DNA of 64,000 bases from Bacteroidota bacterium (GTDB taxonomy: Bacteria > Bacteroidota > Bacteroidia > Bacteroidales > FEN-979): NCBI GenBank assembly GCA_026391795.1, contig JAPLDI010000023.1, positions 1 through 64,000 on the forward strand, given 5' to 3'. Shown here one piece after another: positions 17,291 to 40,829 of the stretch. Every line of letters starts with the position of its first letter. Position 1 is the stretch's first letter. The notes under the pieces are model-generated. The model was given only the letters and a program-made list of their open reading frames with translations, ran no database searches and was not told where the DNA came from. The translations under genes and the position numbers were made by a program.

Positions 17291-17494
17291 CCTAATACCT
17301 AATACCTAAAACCTAAAACCCAGCATCCAGCATCGAGCATCCAGCATCCAGCATCCAGCAACCAGCATCCAGCATCCAGCATCCAGCATCCAGCATCCAG
17401 CATCGAGCATCGAGCATCCAGCATCGAGCATCCAGCATCCAGCATCCAGCATCCAGCATCCAGCATCCAGCATCCAGCATCCAGCATCCAGTAT
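17291..17494. repeat. Adjacent 7-bp tandem arrays (CCTAATA x4, then CCAGCAT x25)
   Basis: CCTAATA twice and CCTAAAA twice (17291-17318), then after 1 bp 25 units of CCAGCAT (17320-17494) in unbroken 7-base phase. Variants include CGAGCAT, CCAGCAA and CCAGTAT. The array ends 75 bp before the pdxJ start. A minus-strand frame through it (repeating MLDAGCW) is an artefact of the repeat. Confidence 0.92.
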
Positions 17495-17569
17495 CCAGCC
17501 AAAGGTAAGAAATTTCGCCCGGATGGGTGATCGTGCGGCGGGATTGTCGTAGTTTTACAAAAAAATTCG

Positions 17570-18286
17570 ATGACGAAACTGAGCGTCAACATCAATAAAA
17601 TTGCGACCCTGAGAAATGCCCGCGGAGGGAATCTCCCGGATGTTGTAAAAGTTGCCCTTGACTGTGAACGCTTCGGAGCCGAAGGGATTACGGTTCATCC
17701 CCGGCCGGATGAACGCCATATCCGTTACCGGGATGTGCTTGAACTGAACCCGGTACTCACCACAGAATTCAATATTGAAGGTTATCCCTCCCGGAGTTTT
17801 ATCGACCTTGTGCTTTCAGCTGAACCTGACCAGGTTACACTGGTCCCTGATCCGCCGGGTGTGCTTACCTCCAATGCAGGATGGGATACAGTGAAAAATA
17901 AGGAGTTCCTGAAGAAGGTTATCGGGGAATTCAAAAGCCATCGTATCCGCACGTCGGTTTTTATTGATCCCGACGAAAAGATGATCCGGAATGCAGCGGA
18001 TACGGGGACCGACCGCGTTGAACTCTATACGGAATCCTACGCGAAGAATTTTCCCGAAGATCGTGAAAGGGCGATCGGTGTCTTTATCGCTGCCGCTGTA
18101 GTTGCAGGTAAAGCCGGATTGGGTTTGAATGCCGGTCACGATCTGAACCTTGACAACCTGCATTATTTTTATAAGAATATTCCCGGCCTGCTGGAGGTTT
18201 CCATCGGGCATGCCCTGATCTGCGATGCACTTTATTTCGGACTGGAAAATACAATCCAGCTCTATCTGCGTCAGCTGAAAGGATAA
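17570..18286 (+). CDS. pdxJ: Pyridoxine 5'-phosphate synthase
   Basis: A protein of 238 residues, normal for PdxJ, which condenses 1-deoxy-D-xylulose 5-phosphate with 3-amino-2-oxopropyl phosphate in vitamin B6 synthesis. Signatures: [15 protein letters not shown] at the N-terminus, [29 protein letters not shown] and [15 protein letters not shown]. The start at 17570 follows the heptad array by 75 bp. The M19 dipeptidase gene follows 30 bp later. Confidence 0.97.
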
Positions 18287-30517: not shown

Positions 30518-31219
30518 TTATCCTTTTTTACTGATCTGCTCAAGCAATTCCATCTTCTTTATTTTCAGGAAACGTCCGTTGATGTCGATGATGCCTTCTT
30601 CTTTGAACTTGATCAGTGCACGGGTCCCGCTTTCCCTGGAAACCCCGATGAGATCCGCAAACTCTTTGCGGGTGAAGGGAAGGTTGAATGCATTCGTTTC
30701 GTAAATGATCCTCGCGAAATAGAGAATGGCATCCGCAACCCTTCCATATATCCTCTTCTGCGACTGGTTGACAAAGCGGTGGAAATTGTTCAGGCTGTCG
30801 CGGCTCACAGATACAAGGATCTCATAGGCGAATCCCCCGTTTTCCTTGATGAGCTTATTAAAGACATTGATGTCAATGTAACAGACCTTGATGTCTTCGA
30901 GGGCGGAATAGGAATAATGATTGATCCTGTCGCCAAACAAAGAAGGCAACCCCAGGTAAGTATGTTCTTTTACGATCGAAAGGATCTGTTCCCGGTCGTT
31001 GGCAGGCTTGACAAATTCTTTAACAAGGCCTGATTTGAGATAGATGATATGGGATGTAAGCGAACCCTGGTGGAGGATGATCTCTCCTTTTTGAACCTCG
31101 CTCTCACGGCTGTTAAAGTTGATCTGGTCAAGCTGGCTTTTCGTCAGGATGGCGGCAGCGCACGACTTGTCCTTGCAATCGCTGCAGCGGTTCTTCGTAT
31201 TAACTGAATCTGAAAACAT
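30518..31219 (-). CDS. Crp/Fnr-family regulator with FNR-type cysteines and CRP-type recognition helix
   Basis: A protein of 233 residues. A cyclic-nucleotide-like beta roll is followed by a dimer helix and a winged helix. Four cysteines sit as in E. coli FNR: Cys12, Cys15, Cys20 (CSDCKDKSC) and Cys113 in ALEDIKVCYID, which aligns with the FNR segment around Cys122, so an oxygen-labile [4Fe-4S] cluster is likely. The recognition helix GVSRESGTRAL has Arg-Glu-x3-Arg, the CRP pattern that reads TGTGA, not the FNR pattern. Palindromes with TGTGA arms are found at 31290 and 33435. It is divergent from the sulfur cluster and is its most likely controller. Confidence 0.9.
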   Translation of the reverse strand: MFSDSVNTKNRCSDCKDKSCAAAILTKSQLDQINFNSRESEVQKGEIILHQGSLTSHIIYLKSGLVKEFVKPANDREQILSIVKEHTYLGLPSLFGDRINHYSYSALEDIKVCYIDINVFNKLIKENGGFAYEILVSVSRDSLNNFHRFVNQSQKRIYGRVADAILYFARIIYETNAFNLPFTRKEFADLIGVSRESGTRALIKFKEEGIIDINGRFLKIKKMELLEQISKKG

Positions 31220-31289
31220 GTTACTTTCTAAGCATCAAACCCCTGAACTATTTCAGACTGCAAAGTTGCGAAAAAATGTCAAGGCTTTG

Positions 31290-31305
31290 TGTGATTAAAA
31301 TCACA
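31290..31305. promoter_or_regulatory. Crp/Fnr-type operator TGTGAT-N4-ATCACA
   Basis: TGTGATTAAAATCACA has perfect six-base arms. It lies 71 bp upstream of the regulator start and 179 bp before the NifX-like gene. It fits the TGTGA-N6-TCACA pattern predicted from the regulator's recognition helix. A weaker half-match ends in TCACA at 31324-31328, about 23 bp away centre to centre. Confidence 0.75.
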
Positions 31306-31404
31306 AAATATAATTTATGCATATCACATCAGGGAAAACAGATTGTCACAGGATTCCGTACCTATAATCACGGTGTTTCCTGGAATTGAAACACAGGTAG
31401 TTAG

Positions 31405-31412
31405 TACTTTTG
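31405..31412 (+). promoter_or_regulatory. Candidate -7 box (TACTTTTG) of the NifX-like gene
   Basis: TACTTTTG matches TAnnTTTG, 72 bp before the ATG at 31484. A TTG ends 16 bp upstream (31386-31388), slightly closer than the usual 19 bp. The operator at 31290 is far upstream of this box. Confidence 0.45.
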
Positions 31413-31483
31413 CTGTGACCAATGTTCCGGTCTGTTTTTACTACAAAGGGAGAGCTTTCCCCAAACAGTATAATCTTAAGAAA

Positions 31484-31825
31484 ATGAAAATAGCAATTCC
31501 GACAGATGATGGATTTACCCTGTCAAAAAAGTTCAGCCCGGCATCGGCTTACCTGGTTCTCACGGTTGAACTTGGTGAGATTGTCAACCAGGAAATGAGA
31601 AGAAACAAAGTGACAGGCTTTACAATTTCCGAATTCACCACGTTTAATACTATCCGCGACTGCAGTGTTGTCATCGTAAGATCCATCGGGGAAGGCCCTT
31701 CTCAGGTGCTTAAAGCGCAAAACAAAGAGATCATTCTGACAGACGAATCCATTGTTACAAGTGCAGTGCTGCATTACCTTGAATCATCGCTGCAGAAGGA
31801 ATCAAACAGCTGCTGCTGTCCGTAA
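31484..31825 (+). CDS. NifX/NifB-C-terminal-like protein (dinitrogenase cofactor superfamily), first of three
   Basis: A protein of 113 residues from the ATG at 31484 (MKIAIPTDDGFTLSKKF); an earlier frame start at 31343 would include the promoter region. The KIAIPTDDG opening is the hallmark of the NifX/NafY/VnfX superfamily, which binds metal-sulfur cofactors in nitrogenase systems and occurs in non-nitrogen-fixers with unknown ligands. The C-terminus carries three consecutive cysteines (SNSCCCP), an unusual metal-binding-like tail. No nitrogenase genes are present. First gene of the run facing away from the FNR-like regulator. Confidence 0.85.
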   Translation: MKIAIPTDDGFTLSKKFSPASAYLVLTVELGEIVNQEMRRNKVTGFTISEFTTFNTIRDCSVVIVRSIGEGPSQVLKAQNKEIILTDESIVTSAVLHYLESSLQKESNSCCCP

Positions 31826-31911
31826 CATGTGCAGGGAACAAATTCAATCACACTGCTCCGTTATCGTCATCACCCGCCAGGCAGGACATTCCCGGCTTCT
31901 GAGTCAATCGT

Positions 31912-33408
31912 ATGCTTTTACTTGATAAAAATACAAATCATCTGCAGCTCCAACGGTACTTCCATAAGTACCGGGAGCAGATTGTAGGCAGGGATCAGCT
32001 TTACAGAACTCCGTACGGAGTACAGAAAATGCTTTATGCCGACTGGGTAGCCAGCGGCAGGTTGTATATGCCCATTGAGAGGATCCTGGTAAATTCCATC
32101 GGACCCTTTATCGGGAACACGCATACGGAAACAAGCGAAACCGGGCGGCTGATGACACAGGCATACCAGCTTGCCCATCAAAAGATAAAACGGCATGTTA
32201 ATGCCGGAAAGCAGGATGTGATCCTGACAACGGGATTTGGAATGACAGGTGCTCTCGTCAAGTTTCAGCGGATCCTGGGAATGAAGATCTGTGGCGGAAT
32301 TTCACATCGCAAATGTTTGAAGGAAGAGGAGAGACCCGTTGTTTTTGTCACTCATATGGAGCATCATTCAAACCAGACCACCTGGTATGAAACTTCCGCT
32401 GATGTGGTCGTGATAGAGCCCGGGGAGGATATGCTTGTTGACCTGAACAGGCTTGAGGACGCTCTGAAAAAATACAGGCACCGCAAAAGGAAAATCGGTT
32501 CTTTCACAGCTTGTTCAAATGTCACCGGGATCCGCACACCGTATCTCCGGATGGCAAGGTTAATGCACGAATATGGCGGACTTGCTTTTATTGATTTCGC
32601 AGCATCCGCTCCTTATGATCCGATCGACATGCATCCATCAGACCCCCTTGAAAAACTGGATGCGATCTTTTTTTCCCCGCATAAATTCCTCGGCGGTCCG
32701 GGTGCATCCGGTGTTCTGGTATTTGATTCAGCACTCTACAACAGCAAAACACCGGATCTGCCGGGCGGTGGAACCGTTGACTGGACAAATCCCTGGGGCG
32801 AATATAAATACATTGACAATATCGAAATGCGAGAGGATGGAGGTACGCCCGGATTCCTGCAGGCCATAAAGACAGCACTGGCCCTTGAATTGAAGTCTCA
32901 GATGGGAACGGTGCAGATGCAATCCCGTGAACGGCAGCTGGTCAGAACTGCGTTCCGTGAGTTGTCATCGGTTCCGGGAATCCAAATTCTTGCAGATCAT
33001 GTAACCGACCGTCTTGGAATAATTTCATTCTACATTCCACCGATTCATTATAACCTGATCGTTAAACTTCTCAGCGACCGGTTTGGAATCCAGGTCAGGG
33101 GGGGGTGTGTTTGCGCAGGTACTTATGGCCATTTTTTGCTGAATGTCAGCCCTTCACGCTCAAAAATCATCACCGACAGGATAAATGCAGGCGATCTGTC
33201 TGAAAAACCGGGATGGGTAAGACTTTCCATTCATCCGACCATGACAGAAGAGGAACTGCAAACCATCGCGGATTCGCTGAAACAAATTGCAATCCACCAT
33301 AGGGAGTGGGGGAAAGACTATTCCTATGATAAGCACACAAATGAGTTTAAGCATTTCTCTACGGTCAACCGGAACAGTCGTATTGAAGAATGGTTTACCA
33401 TTCGGTAG
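31912..33408 (+). CDS. Class V aminotransferase, cysteine desulfurase-like
   Basis: A protein of 498 residues, about 100 longer than SufS/IscS. The PLP lysine is Lys258 in FFSPHKFLGGPGASG. His148-His152 (THMEHHSNQ) corresponds to the cofactor-stacking histidine region. A Cys pair at 399/401 in VRGGCVCAGTYGHFLL sits where desulfurases carry the persulfide-forming cysteine. The extra length lies in the N-terminal arm and the C-terminal tail. In this context, upstream of dsrE-tusA, supply of protein-bound persulfide from cysteine is the likely role; a lyase on another thiol or selenol is possible. Confidence 0.85.
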   Translation: MLLLDKNTNHLQLQRYFHKYREQIVGRDQLYRTPYGVQKMLYADWVASGRLYMPIERILVNSIGPFIGNTHTETSETGRLMTQAYQLAHQKIKRHVNAGKQDVILTTGFGMTGALVKFQRILGMKICGGISHRKCLKEEERPVVFVTHMEHHSNQTTWYETSADVVVIEPGEDMLVDLNRLEDALKKYRHRKRKIGSFTACSNVTGIRTPYLRMARLMHEYGGLAFIDFAASAPYDPIDMHPSDPLEKLDAIFFSPHKFLGGPGASGVLVFDSALYNSKTPDLPGGGTVDWTNPWGEYKYIDNIEMREDGGTPGFLQAIKTALALELKSQMGTVQMQSRERQLVRTAFRELSSVPGIQILADHVTDRLGIISFYIPPIHYNLIVKLLSDRFGIQVRGGCVCAGTYGHFLLNVSPSRSKIITDRINAGDLSEKPGWVRLSIHPTMTEEELQTIADSLKQIAIHHREWGKDYSYDKHTNEFKHFSTVNRNSRIEEWFTIR

Positions 33409-33434
33409 GACAGGATACCGGGAATACCCTGGTC

Positions 33435-33450
33435 TGTGACAAATATCACA
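33435..33450. promoter_or_regulatory. Crp/Fnr-type operator TGTGA-N6-TCACA (distal)
   Basis: TGTGACAAATATCACA has perfect five-base arms. Its centre lies about 76 bp upstream of the expected start point of the promoter at 33482-33512 and 22 bp from a second site, so both face the same side of the helix. Confidence 0.8.
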
Positions 33451-33456
33451 ACACAA

Positions 33457-33472
33457 TGTGATAGAATACACA
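33457..33472. promoter_or_regulatory. Crp/Fnr-type operator, one mismatch (proximal)
   Basis: TGTGATAGAATACACA has one substitution in the right arm (ACACA for TCACA). It ends 9 bp before the -33 element, so it is well placed for an activator touching RNA polymerase. Confidence 0.7.
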
Positions 33473-33481
33473 AATATTTCT

Positions 33482-33512
33482 TTTGTTCATTAATTCACAA
33501 CAGGTATCTTTG
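33482..33512 (+). promoter_or_regulatory. Consensus Bacteroidota promoter of the dsrE-tusA-hdr run
   Basis: TTTG (33482-33485), 19-bp spacer, TATCTTTG (33505-33512): both elements and the spacing match the Bacteroidota -33/-7 consensus exactly. It lies 49 bp before the DsrE-like start codon, with two operator sites immediately upstream. Confidence 0.85.
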
Positions 33513-33561: not shown

Positions 33562-34107
33562 ATGACTATTGAACTAGAAAAACAGATCCAGGAACTGAAA
33601 AACAAGGTTGACCGGTTGGAAGCCGGCACAAAGGATCAATTATCCATGGTCGTCTTTTCGGGTGATCTTGATAAAATTTTAGCCGCGCTGATCATTGCAA
33701 CCGGGGCGGCTGCCTATGATATGAAAGTGAAGCTCTTCTTTACCTTCTGGGCGACTGCAGCACTGCGTGATCCGAAGAAAAGCGGGAAAGGGAAAAACAT
33801 GATTGAGAAGATGTTCGGAATGATGCTGCCGAAAGGGAGCCGGAAGGTGACACTTTCAAAAATGCACATGGCCGGTATGGGAACGGCCATGATCAAGGGG
33901 ATCATGAAGAAGCACAAAGTTGCTTCTCTTCCTGAAATGTTCAAGACAGCCGGAGAACTCGGTATTCAAATAAACATCTGCGAGATGTCGATGAACCTTA
34001 TGGGATTTAAAAAGGAAGAGATGATCGATTATCCCGGGATGACCGTCTGCGGAGTGGCTACTTTTCTCTCGGATGCACAGGAAAGCAAAATCCAGTTATT
34101 TATATAA
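33562..34107 (+). CDS. DsrE/DsrF/DrsH-like sulfur-carrier protein (DsrE2 type)
   Basis: A protein of 181 residues. A short N-terminal coiled coil (MTIELEKQIQELKNKVDRLE) is followed by a DsrE2-family domain: MVVFSGDLDKILAALIIATG, TFWATAALRDP, and the reactive-cysteine motif NICEMSMNLMGFKKEEMID (Cys140) with Cys163 in MTVCGVATFLS. DsrE2 proteins accept persulfide sulfur, often from TusA, in sulfur oxidation clusters. TusA is the next gene, 12 bp on. The gene starts the promoter-proximal position of the hdr run and is probably controlled by the Crp/Fnr sites. Confidence 0.9.
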   Translation: MTIELEKQIQELKNKVDRLEAGTKDQLSMVVFSGDLDKILAALIIATGAAAYDMKVKLFFTFWATAALRDPKKSGKGKNMIEKMFGMMLPKGSRKVTLSKMHMAGMGTAMIKGIMKKHKVASLPEMFKTAGELGIQINICEMSMNLMGFKKEEMIDYPGMTVCGVATFLSDAQESKIQLFI

Positions 34108-34119
34108 AACCTTACAACA

Positions 34120-34371
34120 ATGACTACTGAGGAACTGAAAAGCCTGAAATCGAACACGATCGTAGACGCCCGCGGAACCGCTTGTCCGGGACCCTTATTG
34201 GCAGCAAAAAAAGGAATCGGAGAGATTGAATCCGGGGAGATCATGGAGATCTACTCCTCGGATGAAGGCACGAAGAATGATATCCCGAAGTGGTGTTCAA
34301 AAATGACCCATGAATTTCTTGGAATCATTGAAGAGGACAGCTATTCGAGATTATTCCTGAAGAAAGCATGA
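34120..34371 (+). CDS. TusA-family sulfurtransferase
   Basis: A protein of 83 residues. The TusA signature is VDARGTACPGPLLAAKKGI with the CPxP motif at Cys22, followed by GEIMEIYSSDEGTKNDIPKW and a second cysteine at WCSKM. TusA proteins carry sulfane sulfur between desulfurases, DsrE proteins and downstream oxidoreductases. Flanked by DsrE2 (12 bp) and the MvhD/HdrA genes, it fits the sulfur-transfer middle of the cluster. Confidence 0.93.
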   Translation: MTTEELKSLKSNTIVDARGTACPGPLLAAKKGIGEIESGEIMEIYSSDEGTKNDIPKWCSKMTHEFLGIIEEDSYSRLFLKKA

Positions 34372-34507
34372 TGAGGGCTGCCTGATTCGTGGCGCCTCTG
34401 CAAACATTCAATTCGCTGTTTTACCCTGCTGACAAATGGGTGCCGGAAACCGGTTCCCCGGGGGAGATTTTGTCCGGACAGTTTAAAAAAATATAACAAT
34501 CTTAATC

Positions 34508-34906
34508 ATGGAAAAGACACCCACACGACCGAAGATCCTGGTATTCTCTACCGATAAGATATCCGACCCCGGGATCGACCAGGCCGGATTGCGTAAGATC
34601 CATTATTCACCTGCTGTATATGTTATCAGTCTTCCCTGCTCCTCGGGTATCAAGCCCCGCTGGATCCTGCATGCTTTAAAGCATGGATTTGACGGGGTTT
34701 TTATTGCTGCCGACGGCCACGAATGTTCCTACAGCCCCAGGTGTCCCGAGCTGACCAACCGCATCATCGAGGAATCCCAGCAAATGATGAAAGAAAATAA
34801 TATCAATCCAAAGAGGATCAGGATGGCTGCCATCTGTTCTGTTTGTGCAGAACCTTTTGCAAATCACATGAACAATTTTACAAAAATTTTAGCTGAACTC
34901 GAATGA
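34508..34906 (+). CDS. MvhD-type hydrogenase/heterodisulfide reductase iron-sulfur subunit
   Basis: A protein of 132 residues of the MvhD/FrhD family, a [2Fe-2S] electron-transfer subunit of Hdr-type complexes. Conserved cysteines: VISLPCSSGIKP, GHECSYSPRCPE and ICSVCAEPF. It overlaps the following HdrA gene by 4 bp (ATGA), strong evidence for a joint complex. In Qmo complexes this domain is fused to QmoB; here it is a separate gene, as in methanogens. Confidence 0.92.
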   Translation: MEKTPTRPKILVFSTDKISDPGIDQAGLRKIHYSPAVYVISLPCSSGIKPRWILHALKHGFDGVFIAADGHECSYSPRCPELTNRIIEESQQMMKENNINPKRIRMAAICSVCAEPFANHMNNFTKILAELE

Positions 34907-37650
34907 CAAAGAAGAACATAAAATATGACACCCTGGTCATCGGCGGCGGCATTGCCGGGCAGGAAGCAGCTTTAAACCTGGCCAACATGGATTACAAAGT
35001 GCTTCTTGTTGACAAGGCGCTCTCCATTGGCGGAAAAATGATCCAGCTGAGCAAAGTATTCCCTACGCTTGATTGTGCGGCCTGTATTACCACTCCAAAG
35101 ATGTCGGAAACCGCCCGGCATCACAATATCACACTCCTCCTCAACAGCGAAATTGAGAGCATTCATAAGGTAAACGGACATTTTGAGCTGAATGTGGAGA
35201 AACATTCCCGGTACGTGATCTCCGAGAATTGCACAGGATGTCAGCAATGTGAGCAGGCATGTCCGGAAGTCAGGCCCGATGAATACAACATGAACCTCGC
35301 TGGCAGGAAAGTTGCCTATATCCCTTTCAGCCTGGCAAACCCGAGAATAGCTGTGATCGACCGCCAGGATACCTCCGCTCCCTGCATTGCAGCCTGCCCG
35401 GGAGGCGTAAAGCCCTATGGATATATAACGCTGGTCAGGAACGGTCAATACGAGGAAGCGATGAAACTGCATATGGAGGATATTCCCATTCCGGGAAGCC
35501 TTGGCAGGGCATGTTATGCCCCCTGCGAAGGAGAATGTACACGTGGCAGCCTGGAAGCACCGGTTGATATCAGGCGGATAAAAAGATTTTTTGCAGAAGA
35601 CTATTACGCAAAGCATCCCACGCCGGCAATGATTACCATTGAAAAAAAATCCGGTAAATCCATTGCGATTGTCGGATCCGGGCCTGCCGGACTTACAGCT
35701 GCTTATTTTCTTGCATTGAAGGGCCATCGGGTAAAAATTTTCGAAGCTGCCCCTGAATTGGGCGGAATGTTAAAACTCACCCTTCCTGAATACCGTTTGC
35801 CAAACAGTATTGTCGACAGGGACATTCAGAATATCCTTTCACTGGGTGTTGAACATGAAGTCAGCCGGAGGATCGGGAATCTTGAAGATCTTAAAAAAGA
35901 AGGATTCGATACTGTTTTCGTTTCAGTTGGAACGCATGAAACCACTTCTATGAAGATCGAGGGATCAGATCTGGAAGGTATTGTTTCGTGCCTCGATTTT
36001 CTACGTGAATCCAAGATCGGAAAGAAAACTGATCTGACAGGTAAAAAAGTATTGGTTATCGGTGGCGGAAATACAGCCATGGATGCCTCAAGGACTGCAA
36101 TAAGACTTGGAGCTTCCTCTGTAAAAATCATCTACCGCAGGAGCCGTGAGGAAATGCCCGCCTGGAAGGTCGAATTGCAGGAAGCAATTGAAGAGGGCGT
36201 GGTGCTTGATGTCCTGTGTACCCCCGTCAGGTTTACAGGAGAAAACGGAGCCATAAAGAAAGCCGGAATGATCCGGATGAAACTGGGTGATCCGGATGAA
36301 AGCGGCAGGAAAAGTCCTGTTGAGGTCAGGGGATCTGAATATACCGAAGAGGTTGACTTTGTGATTGAAGCCATTGGATTACAACCCACAACTTCCGGTT
36401 TCAGAAACGAATTGGAACTTGCCAAAAACGGAAGAATTAAAGTCAACCCGAAAACGCTCCAGGCTTCAACCCCATGGATCTTTGCCGGCGGCGACTCGGT
36501 TACCGGTTCATCCACCATTATCGAAGCAGCCGGTCAGGGTAAGAAAGCTGCCTTTTACATTGACAAATATCTTTCGGGCGAAATGCCTGATGATTTTGAA
36601 TTCGGGGACAAACTGGCTGCTGTCGACAAAAGAACCATCCTTGGCCGCGAAAACATCCTTCACAAACCGGCGCTGGGTGACAATTTGCGTCCGGCAGCTG
36701 AAAGGATAAAAGATTTTCAGGAGATCGAAAGAACCTTTACAGAAGAGGAGGTCAGGCAAAGCACGGAACGTTGCCTGGATTGCAGCAATTGCCGTGAATG
36801 CCACCAGTGCATCTCAGCCTGCCCGGCCAATGCCATCGATTTTTCACAAAAAGAAGCAAAGATATCAGCACTGGCAAGCAGCATCATTGTCTCCTCCGGA
36901 TTTCATTTGTTCAATGCTGACGGGAAACCGCAATTTGGTTCTTCGAAATACCCCAATGTCATTAATTCCCTCCAGATGGACCGGCTGATCGCCCCGACAC
37001 GACCTTATAACAATGTTTTACGGCCGGGTGACGGAAAAATGCCGGGCAACATTGCCTATGTGCTCTGTACAGGTTCGCGCGATTCAAGCCTGGATAATTA
37101 CCGTTCCTGCAATGCAGCCTCTGCAAACAATCCCATCTGTTCACAGATCTGTTGCATGTATTCCATCAAGCAGGCACAATTGCTCATGGGGGCACTACCG
37201 ATGGCTGATATTACCATCTATTACATGGATATCCGGGCTTTCGGCAAAGGATACGAGGAGTTTTTCCAGCAGTCGAAGTCGATGGGCATCAGTTTTGTGA
37301 AAGGAAAGATTGCCAGGATAAAACAAAAAGAGGATAACAGCGGCGATCTGATCCTGCGTTTTGAGAACATTGAAACCGGGCAGGTAAAAGAGATGACCCA
37401 CGACCTGGTTGTTTTGTCCGTTGGCGTTCAGCCGAACAATGAGATCGTCAAAGCTTTTAAAAATGCTCCTCTTGAACTCGACGAATTCAGTTTTGTAAAG
37501 CAGGTGGATGTCCTGACAAGCCCTGCAAGAACAACCATCGAGGGTGTTTTTGTAGCCGGTACAGCTTCTGGTCCCATGGATATTCCCGATTCAATACTCT
37601 CAGCCGGCTGCGCAGCATCCGAAGTCGCCGCTTATCTCAATGTAAAATAA
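34903..37650 (+). CDS. HdrA-like flavoprotein with inserted NADPH-dependent GltD/NfnB-like module
   Basis: A protein of 915 residues, about 500 longer than QmoA. Order: HdrA FAD domain (VIGGGIAGQEAALNLA at 12-27; DCAACITTPKM), [4Fe-4S] cysteines 110/113/116/120, then an insert: DPYD/GltD-type Fe-S region (about 160-230, AACPGG and APCEGECTRG), second FAD domain (IVGSGPAGLTAAYFLALKG, 256-274), NADPH site (VIGGGNTAMDASRTAIRLGA with YRRSREEMPA, 385-420), FAGGDSV, and the HdrA part resuming with cysteines 624/627/630/633/636/640 and a second HdrA domain (VLCTGSRDSSLDNYR). The insert should let the Hdr complex exchange electrons with NADPH, with possible flavin-based bifurcation (inference). Confidence 0.9.
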   Translation: MTKKNIKYDTLVIGGGIAGQEAALNLANMDYKVLLVDKALSIGGKMIQLSKVFPTLDCAACITTPKMSETARHHNITLLLNSEIESIHKVNGHFELNVEKHSRYVISENCTGCQQCEQACPEVRPDEYNMNLAGRKVAYIPFSLANPRIAVIDRQDTSAPCIAACPGGVKPYGYITLVRNGQYEEAMKLHMEDIPIPGSLGRACYAPCEGECTRGSLEAPVDIRRIKRFFAEDYYAKHPTPAMITIEKKSGKSIAIVGSGPAGLTAAYFLALKGHRVKIFEAAPELGGMLKLTLPEYRLPNSIVDRDIQNILSLGVEHEVSRRIGNLEDLKKEGFDTVFVSVGTHETTSMKIEGSDLEGIVSCLDFLRESKIGKKTDLTGKKVLVIGGGNTAMDASRTAIRLGASSVKIIYRRSREEMPAWKVELQEAIEEGVVLDVLCTPVRFTGENGAIKKAGMIRMKLGDPDESGRKSPVEVRGSEYTEEVDFVIEAIGLQPTTSGFRNELELAKNGRIKVNPKTLQASTPWIFAGGDSVTGSSTIIEAAGQGKKAAFYIDKYLSGEMPDDFEFGDKLAAVDKRTILGRENILHKPALGDNLRPAAERIKDFQEIERTFTEEEVRQSTERCLDCSNCRECHQCISACPANAIDFSQKEAKISALASSIIVSSGFHLFNADGKPQFGSSKYPNVINSLQMDRLIAPTRPYNNVLRPGDGKMPGNIAYVLCTGSRDSSLDNYRSCNAASANNPICSQICCMYSIKQAQLLMGALPMADITIYYMDIRAFGKGYEEFFQQSKSMGISFVKGKIARIKQKEDNSGDLILRFENIETGQVKEMTHDLVVLSVGVQPNNEIVKAFKNAPLELDEFSFVKQVDVLTSPARTTIEGVFVAGTASGPMDIPDSILSAGCAASEVAAYLNVK

Positions 37651-37660
37651 CCTTAAAGTT

Positions 37661-37690
37661 TCACCCCAACCCTCCCCAAACAGGAGGGGG
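37661..37690. repeat. Short GC-rich hairpin between the two hdrA genes
   Basis: CCCTCC (37670-37675) and GGAGGG (37683-37688) flank CCAAACA, in the 64-bp gap between the two hdrA genes. It could be a weak RNA processing hairpin or a degenerate repeat; there is no T-run, so a terminator is unlikely. Confidence 0.45.
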
Positions 37691-37714
37691 CGGATAAAGG
37701 GAAAACAAGAAAAT

Positions 37715-39718
37715 ATGGAAGAGAAACAAAAAAAAGAACGGATCGGGGTCTATATCTGTCATTGCGGCGGAAATATTTCCGACTACGTGGATGTGGCCCA
37801 GATTAGGGATCTTGCAAAAAATGAAGAAGGGGTCATTATCTCAAAGAATGTGATGTTTGCCTGTGCTGACTCCAATCAGAAGGAGATGATCAGGGATATT
37901 GAAGATGAGAAGCTGGATGCGATCGTCGTCGCATCCTGTTCCCCCAAGCTTCATCTTCACACCTTCAGAAATGTAGCCTTACGCGGAGGGATCAACCCCT
38001 ATAATTACACGCAGGTTAACATCCGGGAACAATGTTCATGGGCACATTCCGATACTCCGGGCGAGGCAAGCATAAAAGCAGCAGGGCTTATCCGCGCAGG
38101 GATCAAAAAAGTCTCCTTTTCTGAAGCGCTTGAGAATATTGAAGTTTCTTCGACCCGGGCCGTGGTGATCATCGGCGCAGGCGTCTCGGGAATGCGGGCT
38201 GCAATCGACCTGGCAAAAATGGGTAACCAGGTATACCTGATCGAGAAAGAGAAAGCAATCGGTGGTAACGTGGCAAAGTGGAAAGAGCTGTTTATCACGG
38301 GGCAGAAAGGAAATACCATTATTGAGGCTCTTTCCAAACAGATAAGGGAACTCACAAACATTACTCTCTTTACTGGTGCCACAATAGAAAAGGTAACGGG
38401 CAGCATCGGCAATTTCATTGCCGAAGTTAACATCGGGGATGAAAAACTTAACCTGAAATCAGGAGCCATCCTGGTCACAACGGGATTTGATTCATACCTG
38501 CCTACAGAGGGTGAGTTCGGGTATAAAAACAATCCGGCCGTGATTACACTTCCTGAATTCAAAGGGCTGATCGATAACAGTCATGAAACACTGCTTTACA
38601 ACAACCGAAAGGTAAACAGCATAGCGTATATTTATTGTGTGGGAATGAGGCAAACCAAAGGAGAAAACAAATACTGCTCGAGGGTTTGCTGCACAACGGC
38701 GATCCAAAGTTCACTCACTGTTCATGAGAAATTCAAAGATATTCAGGCCTACCATTTGTACCGTGATATCCGGACCTATGGGAAACAGGAAATACTTTAC
38801 GAACGCTCCTCGAAAAACGGGGATATCTATTTGAAGTTCGATGAAAAGGCGCCACCGGTTGTTGAACCAATTGGCAATAAACTTCTGGTAAAAGTCAAGG
38901 ATGAGCTTACAAAACGGAGGGAACTTGAACTGGAAACCGACCTGGTTGTATTGGTTACAGGATTGGTCCCGCGCAGCGACAGTAAACAGATCTCTGCCTT
39001 ATTGAAGATTCCCGTCGGAAACGATGGATTTTTCAACGAGATCCATCCGAAATTAAGACCGGTCGAGACCGTAATCAACGGCGTTTTCATTGGAGGTTCA
39101 TGCCAGGGCCCGAAGAATATCTCCGAATCCGTTCAGTCTTCCCTGTCAGCTGCCGTCAAAATCAATGCACTTACCAAGAACCCGACAATTTTTCTTGAAC
39201 CTATTGTTGCACGGATCAATTTTGATGCCTGTGTCTGGTGTGGCAAGTGTGCAGAGGTATGCGAATATGATGCAATACATCCCCTGGAGATGTATGGTAA
39301 AACGGTAGCCTCCGTTAATGAAGCCGTATGCAAAGGATGCGGGATGTGTGCACCGGTTTGTCCGGCCGATGCCATCGACATGGCTCAATATTCCAACAAT
39401 GAGATTGAAGGAATGATTGACGGATTCATGGAGAAAGTAGAGCTTGTGGCAGAAGCAGGAGATAAATTGCAGGATGGCGGCGAAGAGGGAATTGCAATGA
39501 AAGACATGCCGCTTATCTGGAGACAACTGGCCGGGTGCCTGCAGGGCGATTCAAAATCAATTCCTGATCTGGCCAAAGAGCTTGGTTTAGATTCCGAACT
39601 GGTTACCTACAATCTTATGACCATGAATAAATACAGCCTGGTTGAAGCGGATAAGCTGGATGATTCAGATGAATACTTCTCGTATAAATTAAAAAATATT
39701 CCCCATGTCCAGAATTGA
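37715..39718 (+). CDS. HdrA-like flavoprotein with ferredoxin domain and C-terminal winged-helix-like tail
   Basis: A protein of 667 residues with the classic HdrA/QmoB layout: N-terminal GVYICHCGGNISDYVDV and VASCSPKLHLHTFR, FAD-binding VVIIGAGVSGMRAAIDLAKMG (about 150-170), IGGNVAKW, VGMRQTKGENKYCSRVCC, and FIGGSCQGPKNISESV. Two [4Fe-4S] ferredoxin motifs (CVWCGKCAEVC; CKGCGMCAPVC) lie near 508-555. An unusual tail of about 90 residues follows (MPLIWRQLAGCLQGD, IPDLAKELGLDSELVTYNLM) that looks like a small winged helix. The QmoC-like gene overlaps the 3' end by 14 bp, so both are in one complex. Confidence 0.9.
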   Translation: MEEKQKKERIGVYICHCGGNISDYVDVAQIRDLAKNEEGVIISKNVMFACADSNQKEMIRDIEDEKLDAIVVASCSPKLHLHTFRNVALRGGINPYNYTQVNIREQCSWAHSDTPGEASIKAAGLIRAGIKKVSFSEALENIEVSSTRAVVIIGAGVSGMRAAIDLAKMGNQVYLIEKEKAIGGNVAKWKELFITGQKGNTIIEALSKQIRELTNITLFTGATIEKVTGSIGNFIAEVNIGDEKLNLKSGAILVTTGFDSYLPTEGEFGYKNNPAVITLPEFKGLIDNSHETLLYNNRKVNSIAYIYCVGMRQTKGENKYCSRVCCTTAIQSSLTVHEKFKDIQAYHLYRDIRTYGKQEILYERSSKNGDIYLKFDEKAPPVVEPIGNKLLVKVKDELTKRRELELETDLVVLVTGLVPRSDSKQISALLKIPVGNDGFFNEIHPKLRPVETVINGVFIGGSCQGPKNISESVQSSLSAAVKINALTKNPTIFLEPIVARINFDACVWCGKCAEVCEYDAIHPLEMYGKTVASVNEAVCKGCGMCAPVCPADAIDMAQYSNNEIEGMIDGFMEKVELVAEAGDKLQDGGEEGIAMKDMPLIWRQLAGCLQGDSKSIPDLAKELGLDSELVTYNLMTMNKYSLVEADKLDDSDEYFSYKLKNIPHVQN

Positions 39719-40829
39719 TCCGGAATTTGCATCTGAAATAAAAAAGTATGGTGCAAAAGATTTCAGTGCCTGTTTTAATTGCGGAAATTGCACCGCCGTT
39801 TGCGGGTTGACGGATAAAAGCGTGAATTTTCCGCGGATTTTTCTTCGATCCGGGATCCTTGGATTAAAGGATGATATTCTTCAGAGCAGGGAGATCTGGT
39901 TGTGTTATGCATGCGGTGAATGCTCTGAAACGTGTCCCCGCCAGGCAGGTCCGGGAGACTATATGGCTGCCTTGCGCCGCTATGCAATCGCAAGCTACGA
40001 GCCCACGGGCCTGACAAAACTGATTTTTAAAAGCAACCCCGTTTTTATCCTTTTCACAATTTTTCTTTCCGTGATGCTGGGGTTTTTCCTCTTTACCCTA
40101 AAACCCGATCATGAAGTATCCAGGTGGCTTTTTACTGTGATCCCTTATGCCGTTATCCATAACATGGGATTGGTGATCTTCAGCATTACCGGAATTTCCA
40201 TGGCCTGGGGACTGATTACAATGTATCTGAAACTTTCAAAAACCGTCGTGAAATCTGAACCTGGTAAAAGTAACTTCGTGAACGCGTGGAGAGAAGTCGT
40301 AAAGGAACTTGGAACCATGAACCGTTACCAGACATGCGACAAGGAAGATGACTCGTATTGGAAGAATAAACCTGCGGCCATACAGCCCTGGTTTGTGCAC
40401 TGGTCTATCATGTGGGGCTTCCTGGGATTATTGTTAGCTACTGTCCTGGATTTTATACTGAAAGATCCTGCTACCGCAATCTGGTGGCCAAGCCGCATCC
40501 TTGGAACCGTTGCAGGGTTACTCCTGGTTTACGGAACCAGTTTGTCCATAACTTACCGTTTCAAAAAAGTGACCAAGACCTATCGGGAAACAAGGCTTGC
40601 AGACTGGATGTTCCTGCTGTTTCTCTGGGTTGCCGGGATAACAGGGTTCTGGCTTGAAATTTCTGTGGCCTTTGGTGCAAACTACCTGCTGAACCATATT
40701 GTATTGCTTATCCATACGATCATTTCGATGGAACTTGTGCTGTTGTTTGGATTTTCAAAGTTCGCCCACGCCATCTACCGTCCCCTGGCCTTGTTCTTTT
40801 ATTTCAGGGAGAGCCAACAAAAAAATTAA
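39705..40829 (+). CDS. QmoC-like subunit: HdrC iron-sulfur domain fused to a heme-b membrane domain
   Basis: A protein of 374 residues, the normal length for QmoC. The N-terminal HdrC part has two [4Fe-4S] motifs: CFNCGNCTAVC and CYACGECSETCP. Residues about 105 to 365 form a NarI/HdrE-like membrane domain with about six helices and histidines suited for heme b (VIHNMGLVIF, WFVHWSIMWG, LNHIVLLIHTIISMEL). In sulfate reducers QmoC links the complex to the menaquinone pool. No HdrB (CCG domain) gene is present, as in Qmo and unlike classical Hdr. The gene overlaps hdrA by 14 bp. Confidence 0.92.
   Translation: MSRIDPEFASEIKKYGAKDFSACFNCGNCTAVCGLTDKSVNFPRIFLRSGILGLKDDILQSREIWLCYACGECSETCPRQAGPGDYMAALRRYAIASYEPTGLTKLIFKSNPVFILFTIFLSVMLGFFLFTLKPDHEVSRWLFTVIPYAVIHNMGLVIFSITGISMAWGLITMYLKLSKTVVKSEPGKSNFVNAWREVVKELGTMNRYQTCDKEDDSYWKNKPAAIQPWFVHWSIMWGFLGLLLATVLDFILKDPATAIWWPSRILGTVAGLLLVYGTSLSITYRFKKVTKTYRETRLADWMFLLFLWVAGITGFWLEISVAFGANYLLNHIVLLIHTIISMELVLLFGFSKFAHAIYRPLALFFYFRESQQKN

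Follow-up and report, generated by a model that had tools for sequence, protein, structure and literature searches.

Regulator and neighbouring genes

The question raised by this locus is how a single regulator of the CRP/FNR family, here called REG, would control the genes around it when its cysteines resemble those of FNR and its recognition helix that of CRP. The locus lies in a window of 64,000 nucleotides (the whole stretch of DNA that was analysed), for which a first-pass annotation had predicted the regulon of an FNR-type sensor with CRP-type DNA reading.

30518-31219, minus strand: REG, CRP/FNR-family regulator of 233 aa, with Cys 12/15/20/113 and the recognition helix RESGTR

Membership of the CRP/FNR family was supported by the Pfam domains PF00027 (cNMP_binding) and PF13545 (HTH_Crp_2), both above cut-off, and by Foldseek, the top matches of which were CRP/FNR proteins without exception. 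Fnr was the best NCBIfam match (59 bits, under the cut-off of 228), and the score against the CRP equivalog (47 bits against a cut-off of 266) places REG outside curated CRP. As the sensor half of the AlphaFold model was poor (pLDDT <50 at residues 1-18 and 51-103) and hence unreliable, the model was used solely for the helix-turn-helix and the overall fold class.

The four cysteines (12, 15, 20 and 113) and the Arg-Glu-x3-Arg helix described in the first-pass annotation are indeed present in REG, and in a phmmer alignment all four cysteines fall on the cluster cysteines of Aliivibrio fischeri FNR, in the arrangement C-x2-C-x4/5-C with a fourth cysteine ~93 residues on. Among 30 orthologs C12, C15 and C113 are invariant and C20 is kept in at least 90%. 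The recognition helix, R195-E196-S-G-T-R200, is equivalent to R180-E181-x3-R185 of CRP, with R195 and E196 invariant and R200 near-invariant, and it is not the FNR helix (E-x2-S-R, with a TTGAT half-site), being of the form R-E-S-x-x-R with TGTGA as the half-site. It fits a G3/A6 reading, because a published family-wide correlation pairs R180 with G3 and E181 with A6 of the half-site, which corresponds to TGTGA (Rodionov et al., PMC1274295). Among the four CRP/FNR proteins read in the window genome, only REG has the RE-x3-R helix. Its orthologs, which share 56-93% identity in genomes of the window's family and ~53% in Prolixibacter, are found in uncultured Bacteroidales (from anoxic lakes, fens and sulfidic settings) and in Prolixibacter bellariivorans and P. 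denitrificans.

The plus-strand genes of interest are as follows.

31484-31825, plus strand: NifX-like protein of 113 aa with a Nitro_FeMo-Co domain (PF02579), conserved next to REG
31912-33408, plus strand: class V aminotransferase (PF00266), a SufS/CsdA-like cysteine desulfurase relative, below the NCBIfam sufS cut-off
33562-40829, plus strand: dsrE2 operon (Pfam and NCBIfam), with conserved gene order
33562, 34120 and 34508, plus strand: starts of dsrE2, tusA and the flpD/mvhD-like gene
34903, 37715 and 39705, plus strand: starts of the HdrA/GltD-like, HdrA/QmoA-like and qmoC-like genes

The Qmo/Hdr-like operon at 33562-40829 encodes a separate MvhD-like protein, two HdrA-type flavoproteins, one of them fused to a GltD-like module, and a QmoC-like membrane protein. 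As judged from the genes present, the cysteine desulfurase, DsrE2 and TusA suggest a cytoplasmic sulfane-sulfur relay feeding a Qmo/Hdr-like electron-transfer complex. Neither dsrA nor aprA was detected in the window genome (95.6% complete), making a classical sulfate-reduction role unlikely. Elsewhere in the window, the minus-strand ORF at 17299-17595 begins with a WMLDAGC tandem repeat and is probably a non-coding DNA repeat.

Palindromic operators

Two palindromes of the TGTGA-N6-TCACA type and one near-match had been listed in the first-pass annotation, the latter pair spaced by 22 bp, and all of these coordinates proved correct.

31290-31305, palindromic: full operator TGTGATTAAAATCACA, common to the REG promoter (~-41.5) and the divergent NifX-like promoter (~-119.5)
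33435-33450, palindromic: full operator TGTGACAAATATCACA of the dsrE2-qmo promoter, at ~-74.5, with a conserved spacing of 61.5-63.5 bp
33457-33472, palindromic: second operator TGTGATAGAATACACA, at ~-52.5, with one mismatch, a 22-bp step nearer the promoter (22 bp centre to centre from 33435-33450)

A random genome-wide frequency of the motif had been named in the same annotation as grounds for giving up the prediction. Instead, the perfect sequence TGTGA-N6-TCACA occurs exactly twice in 3.76 Mb, at 31290-31305 and 33435-33450, both at this locus. Matches with up to two mismatches were dropped as evidence, their frequency in the window being at chance level (28 seen against 28.9 expected). 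When all 1024 5-mer dyads with a 6-bp gap were compared upstream of 37 REG orthologs, 24 had the TGTGA dyad in exact form and 31 when one mismatch was allowed, whereas the best of the other 1023 dyads reached 1/37 and 10/37, respectively. Three REG loci with no operator (L116, L119 and L130) also have no NifX-like, aminotransferase or dsrE2 neighbours. Taken together, the helix and the conserved operator are consistent with the CRP-type reading of TGTGA-N6-TCACA by R180/E181/R185. The earlier proposal that protein and DNA agree on one site was likewise borne out by the orthologs, in which the same operator stands at fixed promoter positions across genera and, for dsrE2, across families.

Promoter geometry and extent of the predicted regulon

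Promoter positions were set by the TAnnTTTG box, which spans -12 to -5 in a Flavobacterium transcription start site map (PMC9723704); the box definitions were partly picked after looking at the sequences.

31261-31268, minus strand: -7-type box CAACTTTG of the REG promoter, 29.5 bp from the operator centre
33505-33512, plus strand: -7 box TATCTTTG of the dsrE2 operon

Of 31 orthologs, 22 have a CAnnTTTG-type box exactly 29.5 bp downstream of the operator centre in the REG promoter, which predicts a position of ~-41.5 for the operator, that of class II promoters. For dsrE2-tusA-qmo, an operator-to-box distance of 61.5-63.5 bp (~-74.5) was observed in nearly all relatives that have the operator, and this spacing holds across genera and in three other families (L083-L085). 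A second dsrE2 palindrome one 22-bp step closer (-52.5; 40.5 bp to the box) is found in the genus of the window, in a sister genus and in one further family, and in several relatives each of the two sites is a full palindrome. Only one operator precedes dsrE2 in genus g8, where a proximal TCAC is not clearly seen. Scanning of 43 whole genomes for operator+N20-22+YAnnTTTG gave a single match per genome in 14 of them, always at REG. For operator+N52-56+TAnnTTTG, 18 genomes had a single match, which lay at dsrE2 in most cases and on the NifX-like side in one. Controls with the patterns reversed gave 3 and 0 matches, respectively.

The first-pass annotation had also placed the near-match operator 9 bp upstream of a perfect TTTG-19-box promoter. 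The coordinates are right, with TTTG at 33482-33485 in the window dsrE2 promoter, 9 bp past the near-match and followed by a 19-bp gap to TATCTTTG, but the weight given to the -33 element was misplaced. TTTG at this gap was found in 1 of 23 dsrE2 promoters, namely the one in the window, and in none of the 26 NifX-like promoters, and it was rejected as a promoter element, being conserved at neither. The lack of a conserved -33 box points to activator-dependent promoters.

The predicted regulon is thus supported, although its size is tiny, comprising three promoters in one locus. A wide regulon was rejected, as other perfect TGTGA-N6-TCACA sites in relatives are without promoter geometry; many of these have TGTGAA...TTCACA cores and perhaps serve other proteins. 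PhsA/PsrA-like genes were also rejected as regular targets, their upstream regions showing no consistent operator-box geometry. Operons for PhsA/PsrA-like molybdoenzymes (thiosulfate or polysulfide reductase type) adjoin REG orthologs in L136, L143 and L144.

Some further observations concern relatives. In one genus (L070, L072, L074 and L075) the dsrE2 operator centres a 36-48 bp palindrome ~100-140 bp upstream of dsrE2, the arms of which vary between species with compensatory changes; it may be a hairpin terminating the preceding gene or else an extended element for binding. Sister-clade CRP/FNR regulators (L181-L185, L187-L190, L031 and L032) keep C-x2-C and the C113 equivalent and have no third FNR cysteine. 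Most of them keep R-E-x3-R, and several are transcribed divergently from dsrE2-tusA-qmo, the operator again being spaced by about 62.5 bp. As regulators without the third cysteine adjoin the same operator, the site does not require a cluster held by four cysteines. Other Bacteroidales CRP/FNR paralogs (L191, L192, L195 and L110) have C-x2-C-x-C near the N-terminus, most also with a cysteine at the C113 position, and may possess a different Fe-S ligand set.

A 22-bp half-site ladder toward the NifX-like gene

The palindrome at 31290 held up as an operator and was found, in addition, to serve two divergent promoters. The operators of the first-pass inventory stood, but the most unusual feature of the locus, a ladder of half-sites at 31324-31372, had been overlooked.

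31324-31328, plus strand: ladder half-site TCACA, third rung from the NifX-like promoter
31346-31350, plus strand: ladder half-site TCACA, second rung, 22 bp on
31368-31372, plus strand: ladder half-site TCACG, promoter-proximal rung, 22 bp on, with an implied dimer centre at ~-52.5
31405-31412, plus strand: -7 box TACTTTTG of the NifX-like/aminotransferase operon

From the palindrome, TCAC(A/G) half-sites in the same orientation follow at +22, +44 and +66 toward the NifX-like gene. TCACA was observed at these three distances from the operator in 10, 7 and 9 of 31 cases, respectively, against a background of 0.3. With the box as anchor, TCAC stands at an implied dimer centre of 40.5 in 25 of 26 promoters, a count that overstates independence because many of the related genomes are congeners, and in 9 of 9 members of a non-redundant set (<60% identity), which is the safer base. 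Within this 9-member set, 20 of the 21 non-operator TCACs are in the ladder register. In a shuffling test TCAC occurred 16 times in one register, against at most 6 times for any 4-mer in 500 shuffles.

The length of the ladder is quantised. The operator-to-box distance on the NifX-like side is 62.5, 106.5/107.5, 128.5/129.5 or 150.5 bp, which is 18.5 or 19.5 modulo 22 in all 26 promoters with a box. About 26 related genomes preserve the ladder in whole 22-bp steps, and on the REG tree its length class has changed 7 times or more. In L124 the best palindrome is shifted by one rung, with the spacer length unchanged. The inter-rung sequences of distant members are dissimilar, showing that the ladder is not a copied tandem repeat. 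A scan of the 43 genomes for the 4-rung pattern found this locus in three genomes and otherwise simple repeats alone, and these identical tandem repeats were set aside as unrelated. The inner rungs have decayed in several genomes, and all rungs are degenerate in their left halves.

Proposed mechanism and alternative explanations

The operators, their spacings, the half-site ladder, its quantised lengths and the gene linkage are present in the DNA of the genomes compared. From them we infer binding by REG, contiguous occupancy, activation, iron-sulfur sensing and a role in sulfur physiology. The favoured model as a whole, REG-driven control of three promoters including a 22-bp dimer array, with iron-sulfur sensing, is given a probability of roughly 0.7. 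REG would be a dedicated CRP/FNR-type activator, probably with an oxygen-labile iron-sulfur cluster, for three promoters in its own neighbourhood. At its own promoter it would bind the 31290 palindrome at ~-41.5, a class II position, resulting in positive autoregulation. On the NifX-like side, dimers would be added every 22 bp from the same palindrome, with a single TCAC half-site as the main contact of each, and the final one, at ~-52.5, would meet RNA polymerase at the NifX-like/cysteine-desulfurase-like operon. The dsrE2-tusA-qmo promoter would use a two-step version, with dimers at -74.5 and -52.5. The array would be nucleated by the distal palindrome, and the promoters are predicted to depend on it because no -33 box is conserved. 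Class II activation and the action of a proximal dimer at -52.5 are extrapolated from other phyla. For uncultured Bacteroidales encoding a Qmo-like complex, the locus would provide a small sulfur/redox switch that lends itself to testing.

Several points of this model admit other explanations. The palindromes may be REG operators while the 22-bp TCAC ladder is read by another protein, such as a response regulator or nucleoid protein, tiling every 22 bp; response regulators of the BvgA type do so (PMC7250471), and the degenerate left halves of the rungs would fit. This is rather unlikely, given that the rungs share the A-TCAC half-site and register with the right half of the REG palindrome, that the corresponding dsrE2 rung is a full REG-type palindrome in several genomes, and that in L124 the best palindrome is found at the next rung. 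REG is the likeliest occupant of the rungs, since half-site, register and orientation all match its palindrome. It was also considered that the spacing merely keeps the operator on one DNA face for looping or bending, the half-sites being decoys and no dimers tiling, as 22 bp is about two helical turns and long-range helical phasing is common. Pure phasing, however, would permit steps of 10-11 bp, whereas the 26 promoters show multiples of 22 only (within 1 bp), and TCAC is found at each step far above chance, leaving this explanation very unlikely. Tiling by dimers is favoured over helical phasing because the steps are whole 22-bp units rather than 10-11 bp, and the footprint of a CRP-type protein is ~22 bp.

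The direction of control and the signal were weighed in the same way. CRP/FNR proteins are able to repress, and HcpR sites overlapping -10 boxes have been taken as repression (PMC545781), so that REG might be a repressor of these promoters, as proposed for HcpR at Desulfovibrio aps and sat. This is unlikely: no operator overlaps the -7 box, the -33 boxes are not conserved, and -41.5, -52.5 and -74.5 are upstream, activator-type positions. Activation by REG is preferred on the grounds of these operator positions and the missing -33 element. The signal is the least secure step, as it is deduced from the cysteines and sister clades with three of the four share the operator. REG could respond to sulfide, persulfide, NO or a ligand rather than to O2 through a [4Fe-4S] cluster, with its cysteines acting as thiols or holding a different cluster. 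That the targets are sulfur-transfer genes, that the wider subfamily keeps C-x2-C and C113 only, with a variable third position, and that HcpR relatives show a nitrosative stress response (PMC1274295) make this a realistic possibility, if not the favoured one, for the REG clade aligns all four FNR ligand positions with A. fischeri FNR and keeps the third cysteine in at least 90%.

Comparison with known systems

The combination of FNR-like cysteines with CRP-like reading, though present in REG as the first-pass annotation had stated, is not a novelty, as it is already precedented. The HcpR1 regulon of Desulfovibrio is like that of REG in its CRP/FNR family, its Arg180-type helix and its wTGTGAnnnnnnTCACAw operator, the sequence read by Desulfovibrio HcpR (PMC545781, PMC1274295), and the inclusion of sulfur-respiration genes (aps, sat) among the HcpR1 targets is a further likeness. 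HcpR, however, is without the FNR cysteine motif (PMC1274295), unlike REG, which this motif sets apart from HcpR. The core targets of HcpR are hcp/frdX, no 22-bp ladder is described for it, and its phylum differs from that of the REG host; among the matches of the two operator-plus-box scans, hcp was absent.

The Bacillus subtilis Fnr/Crp2 type is likewise an FNR-type regulator with a CRP-like box, although the Fe-S cysteines of B. subtilis Fnr are C-terminal, unlike those of REG, and its targets (nitrate respiration and fermentation) differ from those of REG. The box associated with this type is the CRP-like TGTGA-N6-TCACA (PMC1274295 for Crp2). FNR of E. coli and A. fischeri shares with REG four cysteines at aligned positions and the class II promoter position, but reads TTGAT-N4-ATCAA with E-S-R, whereas REG has R-E-x3-R and would read TGTGA.

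In textbooks, activators of the CRP/FNR family exemplify a single dimer bound at a single fixed position, and we know of no CRP/FNR example of dimer tiling from a distal palindrome to the promoter. No 22-bp CRP/FNR half-site arrays were found in the open-access literature, which is weak evidence of novelty; to our knowledge of that literature, a 22-bp ladder with quantised length is undescribed for CRP/FNR proteins. If the array is true, the CRP/FNR family can also act as a nucleated array, and operator searches based on palindromes only would miss most of the contacts of such an array.

A comparable architecture is found outside the family. BvgA belongs to the NarL family of response regulators, with a fold unrelated to CRP/FNR, and REG, being CRP/FNR by Pfam, lies outside that family. 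At BvgA promoters of Bordetella (fha type), a distal strong palindrome is followed by dimers that recur at 22-bp intervals along the same face of the DNA, and the last of them abuts the core promoter, the 22-bp steps being the natural unit (PMC7250471). The REG locus appears to follow the same plan of a distal strong palindrome and then sites every 22 bp to the core promoter, a likeness of architecture and not of family. BvgA binds many weak sites with little sequence, whereas the REG locus has clear TCAC half-sites. On this comparison, it is judged reasonably probable that a CRP/FNR activator works here as a contiguous 22-bp array of whole dimers, nucleated by a palindrome and guided by half-sites, with a distance that evolves by whole dimers: a BvgA-like arrangement reached independently by an unrelated fold.
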